Shown here piece after piece: positions 23,056 to 54,819 of a stretch of DNA of 64,000 bases; the stretch's first letter is position 1; each line of letters starts with the position of its first letter. The translations under genes and the position numbers were made by a program. The stretch is from an uncultured Caryophanales bacterium. Lineage in GTDB: Bacteria > Bacillota_I > Bacilli_A > RFN20 > CAG-826. The notes beneath the pieces were generated by a model, which was not told where the DNA came from, made no database searches, and saw nothing but the letters and a program-made list of their open reading frames with translations. The stretch is from NCBI GenBank assembly GCA_946612115.1, contig CAMOEI010000004.1, positions 1 to 64,000 on the forward strand, read 5' to 3'.

Positions 23056-23394
23056 ATTAAAAACCTCTAATCTTGTTTGAAATAAAACAGTTTTCCACTT
23101 CTATTATAGTGGTTTTTGCTTCTCTTTTGCTAAAAATTCATAGATTTTTATATTTATCACTACCTACAAAGTAGGTCTAATTATATATAGAAAAAAAGTT
23201 TGGGAAATTTTTTAAAAATTCCGAAAAATCGCCCTATTAATAAATGAGGACACTCGAAAATAAGTGTCCAACTTTTGATCTCTAGCGTGGTCTCCTAGTG
23301 AGAACTCGCTATTCGTTCTTTCTATGGTTTCTGGTCTAGCGATAATCCGATTGGAGTAACGCTGGAGCGAGATAATTAGGAGGAGGATCAGTTT

Positions 23395-23469
23395 ATGAAC
23401 AATGAATTGATACTTTTATTATTATTACTGTTCGCAGTACTAAGCAAAATAAAAGACCCTAAGGACTAA
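23395..23469 (+). CDS. 24-aa hydrophobic peptide MNNELILLLLLLFAVLSKIKDPKD (type I toxin-like candidate)
   Basis: SD TAGGAGGAGG 8-10 nt before ATG; TM-like Leu run with charged tail; absent from the ORF track because of its length. Confidence 0.55.
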   Translation: MNNELILLLLLLFAVLSKIKDPKD

Positions 23470-23512
23470 TTAGGGCCCAACCTATTTATAGTAAACCATG
23501 GCTCTAGACATT

Positions 23513-23518
23513 TGTCAA
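23513..23518 (-). promoter_or_regulatory. Candidate -35 box of an antisense promoter across the micro-ORF
   Basis: Minus strand reads TTGACA; only weak -10 candidates (TACTAT at 19 nt, TATAAA at 22 nt). Confidence 0.3.
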
Positions 23519-23590
23519 TGAGTGTCCTCGAACGATAAGAGAAACTTTGTTTTCGCCATTTATAGAGTTTCTTATTGACGTAAGTATTTC

Positions 23591-23619
23591 TTTACATGCT
23601 AGAAGCGATTTAATATAAT
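23591..23619 (+). promoter_or_regulatory. rpsF operon promoter
   Basis: TTTACA - 17 nt - TATAAT. Confidence 0.75.
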
Positions 23620-23690: not shown

Positions 23691-23981
23691 ATGCGCAAAT
23701 ACGAAATTATGTACATTTTAAGAGCTGACTTAGAAGAAGCAGCGCGCAAAGAACAAATGGAGAAATTAGCAGGCATTATCACTTCTAATGGTGGTAAAGT
23801 CGAAAAGACTGATGAATCCATGGGATTACGCGAACTCGCTTATCAAATCAATGGTCAATCTAAGGGCTATTATGTTGTACTCGAAGCATCAATGGACAAC
23901 GCTTGTATCAATGAATTCAATCGTTTAGTCAGAATTGACGCTAGTGTCTTACGTCATCTTATCACTGTAGCACACAAATAA
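23691..23981 (+). CDS. rpsF: 30S ribosomal protein bS6
   Basis: MRKYEIMYILR start; syntenic with ssb and rpsR. Confidence 0.97.
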   Translation: MRKYEIMYILRADLEEAARKEQMEKLAGIITSNGGKVEKTDESMGLRELAYQINGQSKGYYVVLEASMDNACINEFNRLVRIDASVLRHLITVAHK

Positions 23982-23995
23982 GGAGGACAACGCTC

Positions 23996-24430
23996 ATGAT
24001 TAATCGTGTAGTTTTAGTGGGTCGCTTAACTAGAGACCCAGAATTAAGAAAAACCACATCTGGCAATCAAGTTTGTACATTTACCATTGCTATTGACAAT
24101 CGTCAAAAGAATCCTGATGGTAGCAAATCTACAAGTTTCATTCCATGTACCGCATGGATGAGCACTGCAGAAACCACAAGCAAATACGCCCGTAAAGGTT
24201 TACTCGTAGGCGTCGAGGGCCGCTTAAACCAAAGAAGCTATATCAAAGCTGATGGTAGCAAAGCTAGTGTCATCGAAGTTATCTGTGATTCTGTTCAATT
24301 CTTAGAAAGAAGAGAAGAAACAGTCGCTAACGAAGAAATGGATGTTCCACCATTTGATGATGGACCAGCCATTGACGAAGCAAAAAACTTAGATAGCATC
24401 GAAATTACCGACGACGACTTACCATTCTAA
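23996..24430 (+). CDS. ssb: Single-stranded DNA-binding protein
   Basis: [18 protein letters not shown]; acidic C-terminus DDDLPF. Confidence 0.97.
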
Positions 24431-24449
24431 GAAAGGAAAATTATTTAAA

Positions 24450-24677
24450 ATGGCATTTAAAAAAGTTAGACCACACAAGAAGGTCTGTTATTTCAAGAAA
24501 AATAACATTACCCACATCGATTACAAAGATGTCGAAATGTTAAAAATGTTCATTGCTTCTAATGGAAAGATTTCCCCAAGAAGAACAACTGGAACATGCG
24601 CTAAGCACCAAAGAGAATTAGCCGTTGCTATTAAAAATGCAAGATTTATGGCTCTTCTCCCATACGTTGCTGACTAA
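24450..24677 (+). CDS. rpsR: 30S ribosomal protein bS18
   Basis: [50 protein letters not shown]. Confidence 0.97.
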
Positions 24678-29371: not shown

Positions 29372-29623
29372 ATGGCAGTTACTAATATTTCTGTTTTGAG
29401 AAAAAATCTCTTTAGTTCTATTGATAATGTCATTGAGTACAATGACTCTATCACTGTGAGCACCAAAAATGGTAATGCAGTTATTATCTCTGAAGCTGAA
29501 TACAACGCTATGTTGGAAACTATTTATTTAGTTTCTCAGAAAGGTCTTGTTGAAAAGATTAAAGAAGGCGAAAAAGAAGATATTTCTAAAATGTCTACTT
29601 ATAATCCAAATGAAGAGTGGTAG
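29372..29623 (+). CDS. YefM/Phd family antitoxin
   Basis: MAVTNISVLRKNLFSSIDNVIEYNDSITVSTKNGNAVIISEAEYNAM; SD caggagg; promoter TTGATT-16-TATAAT upstream. Confidence 0.85.
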   Translation: MAVTNISVLRKNLFSSIDNVIEYNDSITVSTKNGNAVIISEAEYNAMLETIYLVSQKGLVEKIKEGEKEDISKMSTYNPNEEW

Positions 29624-29625
29624 TT

Positions 29626-29892
29626 ATGTGGATTATTAAATTCACTAAAAACGCTGAGAAAGATAAAAAACTACTTAAAAGTGCTGGATTAGAAGATAAA
29701 GTAAAGAAATTATTAAACCTTATCGCTAAAAACCCTTTTCAAAACCCACCAAGTTATGAAAAACTTGTTGGTGATTTACAAGGCTATTATTCGAGAAGAA
29801 TTAATCTTCAACATAGGCTTGTTTACAAAGTTCACGAAGATATCAATACTGTTGTTGTTCATTCAATGTGGTCACATTACGGAGATAATTAG
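29626..29892 (+). CDS. YoeB/Txe family mRNA interferase
   Basis: Basic core and C-terminal RRINLQHRLVYKVHE...VHSMWSHYGDN; ATG at 29626. Confidence 0.88.
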   Translation: MWIIKFTKNAEKDKKLLKSAGLEDKVKKLLNLIAKNPFQNPPSYEKLVGDLQGYYSRRINLQHRLVYKVHEDINTVVVHSMWSHYGDN

Positions 29893-54432: not shown

Positions 54433-54819
54433 GGGGTCGTAATGGATTCGACGGAGATGTGCAGGGCATTAATTGCAGCGGTTGGTAACCAAAAACCAAA
54501 ACAAAAATAACTGACAACAGTTATATGAGAGCACCTCGTGCTCAATCTCTCTGCTTAGCTTAATTTACCCGATATAGGGTCCCATTATTTAATGGGGCAG
54601 AGCGCTCTTTAAGGTTTTAGCCTTTCACGCTTAAAGTAAGTGTCATAACAAAAGGATTGTGGTCTAGAGTTGATTGGTTACTAGGTCATGAAATTCGTTA
54701 ATCTCGCATAGAGAATTGAGTCGATATATGAATCTATGTTAAATGTTAATATCGTCTAAGCTGTAGACGTTATTGTATGGCCATCTTCGGACGTGGTTTC
54801 GATACCACCGGCTCCACCA
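54433..54819 (+). ncRNA. ssrA: Transfer-messenger RNA
   Basis: 5' GGGGTCGTAATGGATTCGACGG, 3' GGTTTCGATACCACCGGCTCCACCA; acceptor 7 bp pairs; tag ORF preceded by AATAACT. Confidence 0.97.

Follow-up and report, generated by a model that had tools for sequence, protein, structure and literature searches.

A multi-copy family of putative type I toxin-antitoxin-like modules behind a competence-type promoter in uncultured gut Bacilli

The element of interest lies in a 64,000-nucleotide stretch of DNA (hereafter, the window) from an uncultured Caryophanales bacterium, where it occupies the space between a promoter that we call Pcom and the rpsF-ssb-rpsR operon; the same arrangement recurs in most of the genus. 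We consider it likely that the element works as a type I toxin-antitoxin-like module and is controlled by competence. This reading draws on several lines of comparative evidence: the architecture of the element, its conservation, a promoter shared with other genes, an antisense promoter, and a terminator. Together, the components of the element make up the parts list of a type I module, namely (i) a regulon promoter, (ii) a structured mRNA, (iii) a membrane peptide, (iv) a 3'-overlapping antisense RNA, and (v) copies that are pairing-specific.

The element contains a 24-aa micro-ORF (positions 23395–23469, plus strand) encoding MNNELILLLLLLFAVLSKIKDPKD, a putative type I-like toxin in which a hydrophobic segment is followed by KIKDPKD. 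The micro-ORF stands behind a Shine-Dalgarno sequence (SD), TAGGAGGAGG, that can be read directly at positions 23378–23387 of the same strand. An earlier note on this DNA had reported both features, and they are real, with the coordinates given here. DNA-level BLAST searches of 58 relatives returned no homologs, and sequence models were required. Model R1, covering the 3' part of the element, pointed to same-genus genomes, in which inspection revealed complete homologous units. Model R2, built from 15 sequences and covering the SD, the ORF and the antisense promoter, finds matches in 17 of the 19 same-genus genomes, with as many as eight in a single genome and E-values down to 2e-27, and also in a few other genera within the same family. 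Beyond the genus, R1 gave some weak matches (for instance in genomes G089, G163 and G165), which are chance-like and were discarded. The exact antisense-block pattern has no match in GTDB r220 contigs or IMG/VR, collections that possibly do not hold the records of the window's own genome. The host genus is an uncultured gut lineage related to Erysipelotrichaceae; the named contigs with similar RecA proteins are those of uncultured Bacillales, Erysipelotrichaceae and Bacilli MAGs, several of which are rumen-derived.

From 21 genomes, the model matches yielded 62 copies in which an SD precedes a hydrophobic ORF; this count takes in some near-identical copies, and 56 distinct peptides are encoded. 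Their layout is a common one, in which a promoter is followed by a structured 5'UTR, the micro-ORF and a predicted antisense unit that converges on it. Most copies keep a strong SD. Type I toxins usually have fewer than 60 residues, a transmembrane segment and a charged C-terminus (PMC6563280), and these traits are found in the 62 copies: the peptides are 18–28 aa long, with a hydrophobic transmembrane segment and a basic C-terminus (mean net charge of the last nine residues, +1.8). Examples of divergent family peptides are METYLILFLLCLLVSIIKGPTRKD and MKEIIVALFEIIIILLIIKKDPPSDKR. The more diverged pairs show more synonymous than nonsynonymous change, with some close pairs being uninformative: pS is 0.49 versus a pN of 0.06 between the window copy (A1) and the copy on contig C5 (A2), and the values for the G011b/G001a pair are 0.66 and 0.25, respectively. 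Pfam contains no informative match for the peptide (a single sub-threshold hit is to an unrelated family), the peptide family has no match in NCBIfam or PADLOC, and the element has none in Rfam; no toxin or RNA model of Fst/Ldr, TxpA, Hok or other described families matches the element. Searches of the open literature (as opposed to subscription papers and T1TAdb) on type I toxin-antitoxin systems in connection with competence or with these taxa turned up no such family. The peptide could also be just a harmless small membrane protein, and this counts against the toxin reading.

The element is multi-copy in its own 1.23-Mb genome. About eight loci were counted, given that the copies on contigs C18 (5' part only), C1 and C21 (3' parts only) are partial, and all lie at contig ends. 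A 307-base copy at C5:4164 is 89% identical to the window element, while a copy at C2:118829 carries an internal deletion and retains both ends; divergent copies are found on C3, C8 and C18, and at C4:97104, C1:226903 and C21:6963. The own-genome copies form three subfamilies, of which A encodes MNNELILLLLLLFAVLSKIKDPKD, B MDISLIVLVIILAIILEIKKDHH and C MVDLIVVLLITLAIICKIKD. Some lie directly upstream of dprA and of comEA-comEC, a gene pair with SLBB/HHH followed by Competence and Lactamase_B domains. Several others, including those on C3 and C5, stand alone.

Upstream of the micro-ORF lies Pcom (AAATTTTTTAAAAATTCCGAAAAATCGCCCTATTAATAAATGAGG; positions 23205–23249, plus strand). The TATTAA at 23235–23240, in which the earlier note had seen a promoter box, is present and constitutes the -10 of this promoter. 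The Pcom block is shared with recA, dprA, a comG-like operon, radC and the element copies, and is identical to the block 5' of recA at 45 of 46 positions. In the own genome it also serves comEA-comEC, and precedes a small peptide plus radC, and three genes with MuF_C domains; a Pcom variant is common to subfamily B and an operon with a T2SSE (ComGA-like) ATPase. Besides the site in the window, own-genome sites are C5:82494, C1:157074, C7:32362, C8:16789, C8:18969 and C2:49540. From the genes downstream of it, we infer that Pcom is a competence promoter.

The reach of Pcom was assessed with a position weight matrix (PWM) trained solely on 17 dprA and 10 recA promoters. Of 56 element upstream regions, 41 score above the 99% control level, mostly 155–190 nt 5' of the ATG, and a visibly related T-tract variant is seen in several of the others. 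The window Pcom scores 17.4, on a matrix that is not perfectly specific: one site within a window gene outscores the element promoter. Promoter sharing with late competence genes is thus seen in these upstream regions and, in the own genome, with the comG-like operon, radC and recA. In 17 same-genus relatives, dprA has the corresponding promoter without the element. Pcom is weak or missing in a few family members from outside the genus (G071, G126 and G046), which counts against the competence reading. A genus scan with the promoter by itself was abandoned, since all that it yielded outside the own genome were chance matches. No LexA DNA-binding domain was found in 19 genus genomes, while a control search detected LexA in known genomes. 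The absence of LexA from the genus rules out SOS/LexA control of the element; Pcom is therefore no SOS promoter, and competence regulation is the natural reading.

Several observations concern Pcom sites in their own right. The genus-wide consensus is AAATTCgAAAAAaaCCCCTcTTTATATAaTgAGGGG, with an inverted CCCCTC/GAGGGG flanking the -10, and precedes recA, dprA, the comG-like operon and radC. In the C1:157066 region (L026:1500–2450), a 60-aa peptide, MKYTLMNEQELANEVSGAAITLAGVMAILATAVIAVVIYKLFLSKKGTTQVPGGWKFSWN, sits in a Pcom-driven arrangement immediately 5' of radC; its N-terminus is bacteriocin-leader-like, and it has no informative Pfam match. At C8:15–20 kb and C2:49.5 kb (L024, L029 and L030), three paralogs of 172–190 aa with a MuF_C domain (PF18819) each stand directly behind Pcom.

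On the 3' side of the window element, the operon at 23691–24677 (plus strand) comprises rpsF (23691–23981), ssb (23996–24430) and rpsR (24450–24677), and has a separate, housekeeping-type rpsF promoter (TTTACA-N17-TATAAT; 23591–23619, plus strand). In streptococci, ssb is a competence gene. Synteny was counted in the 15 genus genomes in which rpsF was found. In 13 of these, a Pcom motif with a score of at least 6 lies 5' of rpsF; the site in G001 scores 3.2 yet resembles the same motif, and in G005 no Pcom is visible upstream of rpsF. Eleven genomes have SD-bearing hydrophobic micro-ORFs between Pcom and rpsF, with tandem units in several, while in G016 and G006 the Pcom motif lies close to rpsF with no micro-ORF. 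This synteny suggests that the element at the window locus is probably old and vertically maintained, rather than a recent insertion. Elsewhere in the window, we observed a tmRNA (54433–54819) whose predicted tag, DNSYMRAPRAQSLCLA, is unusual, and a pair of ORFs of 83 and 91 aa (29372–29892) with the look of a YefM/YoeB-type antitoxin-toxin pair.

The opposite strand of the element carries what appears to be a transcription unit of its own. Its promoter, TTGACA (23518–23513)-N19-TACTAT (23493–23488), spans 23488–23518 on the minus strand; the TTGACA had already been picked out in the earlier note, and the promoter proves to be conserved across species. The pattern TTGAC(A/T)-N17 or N19-TACT(A/T)T occurs on the minus strand 3' of the stop codon in all 13 full copies compared. 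A looser pattern is found in 50 of the 62 copies, versus 4.7% of dinucleotide shuffles, and a stricter one is unique within the window. Scanning for terminators revealed a minus-strand intrinsic terminator at the ORF 3' end in 43 of 62 copies (versus 8.7% of shuffles); the number with a sense-strand terminator is zero of 62. Among the 47 copies outside the model training set, 35 have the antisense promoter and 31 the terminator. In some copies no antisense promoter, or no terminator, could be recognised, which counts against the toxin-antitoxin reading.

The predicted antisense RNA of the window element is ~37 nt long (23446–23482, minus strand), and consists of a GGUUGGG tail, the terminator hairpin (23478–23454) and a U-rich run; it is complementary to the ORF 3' end and the beginning of the 3'UTR. 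Across the family, lengths of ~35–45 nt are predicted, and we know of no type I antitoxin this short, a further point against the reading. The terminator stems vary widely in sequence, with pairing kept by compensatory change, a signature of selection on a minus-strand RNA. In the own genome, pairing of an antisense RNA with its own mRNA is predicted at about -52 to -62 kcal/mol, versus -17 to -40 kcal/mol with the mRNAs of other copies. At the level of sequence, then, an antisense gene with its own promoter and terminator overlaps the putative toxin mRNA. Comparative sequence strongly supports the proposal in the earlier note of a new type I-like family (of putative toxins) with an antisense RNA: homologs exist, the ORF is conserved, and so are the antisense promoter and its terminator. 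The antisense terminator, the competence-type promoter as driver and the other copies had escaped the note. A separate observation comes from genome G007, where at C24:11778 and C17:83 (L182 and L183) an antisense promoter and terminator lie behind the end of a different reading frame. Both look like an antisense cassette joined to another gene, with the 5' parts missing at contig ends.

The body of the element (23246–23529, plus strand) would correspond to a structured sense mRNA running from the transcription start to the 3' repeat arm, as judged from the limits of the own-genome repeats and from fold z-scores. Since there is no sense terminator, the mRNA probably continues towards rpsF. The region 23235–23540, for which folding had been proposed, is predicted to be more stable than its shuffles (z = -4.4), and z-scores for 13 full copies from seven genomes range from -2.2 to -8.2. 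Predicted plus-strand hairpins flank a conserved 5'UTR motif, GTTCTTTCTATGGTTTCT (23315–23332, plus strand), which is invariant in the own genome bar one C/T and recognisable in relatives: a 5'UTR hairpin, TAGCG...CGCTA (23283–23311), and a hairpin immediately 5' of the SD (23334–23365). Their positions recur among subfamilies A, B and C, with different sequences. The 3' half of GTTCTTTCTATGGTTTCT is able to pair with AAACCATGG in the 3'UTR (23493–23501). RNAalifold returned no consensus structure from a 13-sequence MAFFT alignment; hairpins kept by position with wholly different sequence make such an alignment unsuitable, and pairing was therefore assessed hairpin by hairpin.

The two ends of the element can also pair with each other. 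In the long-range helix H1, the 5' arm GAGGACACTC (23246–23255) is the exact complement of the 3' arm GAGTGTCCTC (23520–23529); in the alternative local hairpin H1', positions 23248–23254 pair with AGTGTCC at 23263–23269 (all plus strand). All three sequences are present as first described. H1 is kept by compensatory change in the three own-genome subfamilies (GAGGACACTC/GAGTGTCCTC, GAGGGCAGT/ACTGCCCTC and GAGGG..CUUU/AAAG..CCCUC), and H1' is also maintained, with different sequence, in B and C. Significant 5'-3' pairing (p≤0.05) is seen in 10 of 47 copies, among them the two G007 copies and each of the four tested from the own genome, and is thus no general feature of the family. The Hok/AapA-like fold-back that had been suggested therefore holds for the own species (G000) and its relative G007, but for few other members. 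For SD masking, likewise suggested, the complementary sequences named are present; anti-SD pairing reaches p≤0.05 in 4 of 53 copies, no more than in shuffles. The SD is mostly paired in predicted folds, with no significant excess of occlusion over 28 ordinary window genes (p = 0.12), and AapA-like unfolding of the SD upon 3' trimming was not seen in silico.

Parts of this design are familiar from known systems. As in TisB/IstR-1 and DinQ/AgrB of E. coli, the mRNA of a membrane micro-peptide with a regulon promoter would face an antisense RNA with a constitutive promoter; DinQ is a single-span peptide of 27 aa, and DinQ and TisB are toxins of DNA-damage/recombination regulons that are countered by antisense RNA (PMC3567139). 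Unlike TisB and DinQ, the element, whose host genus lacks LexA, shares its promoter with competence genes, has a predicted antisense RNA that is cis-encoded at the ORF 3' end, occurs in many copies per genome, and shows no recognised sequence similarity to them. In the own species and G007, a local 5' hairpin would compete with 5'-3' pairing, as in AapA/IsoA (Helicobacter) and Hok/Sok. The element departs from those systems in that its 5'-3' pairing is not family-wide (10 of 47), no excess of SD trapping over chance was seen, and the mRNA 3' end is not defined by a terminator; the predicted antisense overlap is also shorter than the AapA3/IsoA3 duplex of 80 bp (PMC6733600). In Gram-positive type I systems, toxin and antisense RNAs overlap at their 3' ends (PMC4147584). 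With Fst/par_pAD1, TxpA/RatA, BsrG/SR4 and the C. difficile modules, the element has in common a short hydrophobic peptide with a charged C-terminus (PMC4147584, PMC6563280), a predicted convergent, 3'-overlapping antisense RNA, and specificity among homologous copies. It differs from this group in its competence promoter, in its lack of Pfam, NCBIfam and Rfam matches, and in a predicted antisense RNA that is far shorter and overlaps the coding end; nor does it have the shared bidirectional terminator of Fst/par_pAD1 (sense 0/62, antisense 43/62).

The main rival to the toxin-antitoxin reading, which we consider unlikely, is that the element is a regulatory leader: the micro-ORF, folds and antisense unit would tune Pcom read-through into rpsF-ssb-rpsR, comEA-comEC or dprA by attenuation or transcriptional interference, and the peptide would be no toxin. 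Such a role fits the lack of a sense terminator and the placement of copies: most genus genomes have them between Pcom and rpsF-ssb, and those of the own genome include copies that directly precede comEA and dprA. However, the several standalone copies (e.g., on C3 and C5), together with the Pcom promoters that have no element at dprA (17 relatives) and rpsF (G006 and G016), argue against a leader as the sole role, and retention of hydrophobicity and a basic C-terminus despite sequence divergence would be unusual for a mere leader. A distinctly less probable alternative is that the peptide is a small membrane protein of the competence machinery (e.g., a DNA-uptake accessory) that benefits the cell, is not toxic, and is dampened by antisense RNA outside competence. 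Co-regulation with comEA, comG-like, dprA and recA genes, the multiple copies and the strong conservation are all consistent with it, but a toxin-antitoxin system is the better fit for genomes with up to eight divergent copies, for antisense RNAs specific in their pairing and for a lack of similarity to known families.

We give hardly any credence to a selfish, MITE-like repeat with inverted-repeat ends that spreads beside competence promoters. Near-identical copies are indeed dispersed in the own genome, the C2:118829 copy is internally deleted with both ends kept, and contigs end in copies. Against this, the inverted ends are absent from most of the family, with end pairing confined to one subclade; the ORF, antisense unit and promoter are conserved; and the locus 5' of rpsF-ssb is syntenic, by vertical descent, in most of the genus. 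No copies were found in phage, plasmid and viral collections. On these grounds the mobile-element reading was rejected, and the small mobile cassette that had been put forward as an alternative in the earlier note is not supported.

A more specific form of the toxin-antitoxin reading, which we advance tentatively and at somewhat less than even confidence, is that the elements belong to an undescribed family of competence-timed type I toxin-antitoxin systems with unusually short cis-antisense antitoxins, situated in competence-operon leaders (ssb, comEA-comEC and dprA) of uncultured gut Bacilli, with membrane toxins made in step with DNA uptake and recombination. For the main reading, which we hold to be likely, we infer transcription, toxicity, antisense neutralisation and a physiological role as follows. 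Pcom would transcribe a structured mRNA encoding a single-span membrane peptide of ~24 residues, and the sense transcript would read on into rpsF-ssb-rpsR here and, in other copies, into comEA-comEC or dprA, or into no gene at all. From the opposite strand, a promoter of housekeeping type would yield an antisense RNA of ~35–45 nt (tail plus terminator hairpin), perfectly complementary to the ORF 3' end. During ordinary growth, this RNA would pair with leaky sense transcripts, which would be blocked or destabilised. When Pcom fires, the sense RNA would outrun the antisense RNA, and peptide would be produced. The peptide may then act on the membrane, causing depolarisation or a growth pause amid DNA uptake and recombination, by analogy with the LexA-driven TisB and DinQ in the SOS response.

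The work presented here adds to type I toxin-antitoxin systems a multi-copy family for which there is no existing model. If functional, its members would be type I toxins whose link is with natural transformation and not with plasmids, prophages or SOS, and they suggest that very short (about 35–45 nt) cis-antisense antitoxins exist. For reduced-genome gut Bacilli that are known from metagenomes only, the family comes with a recognisable competence-type promoter, which makes competence in these bacteria testable.
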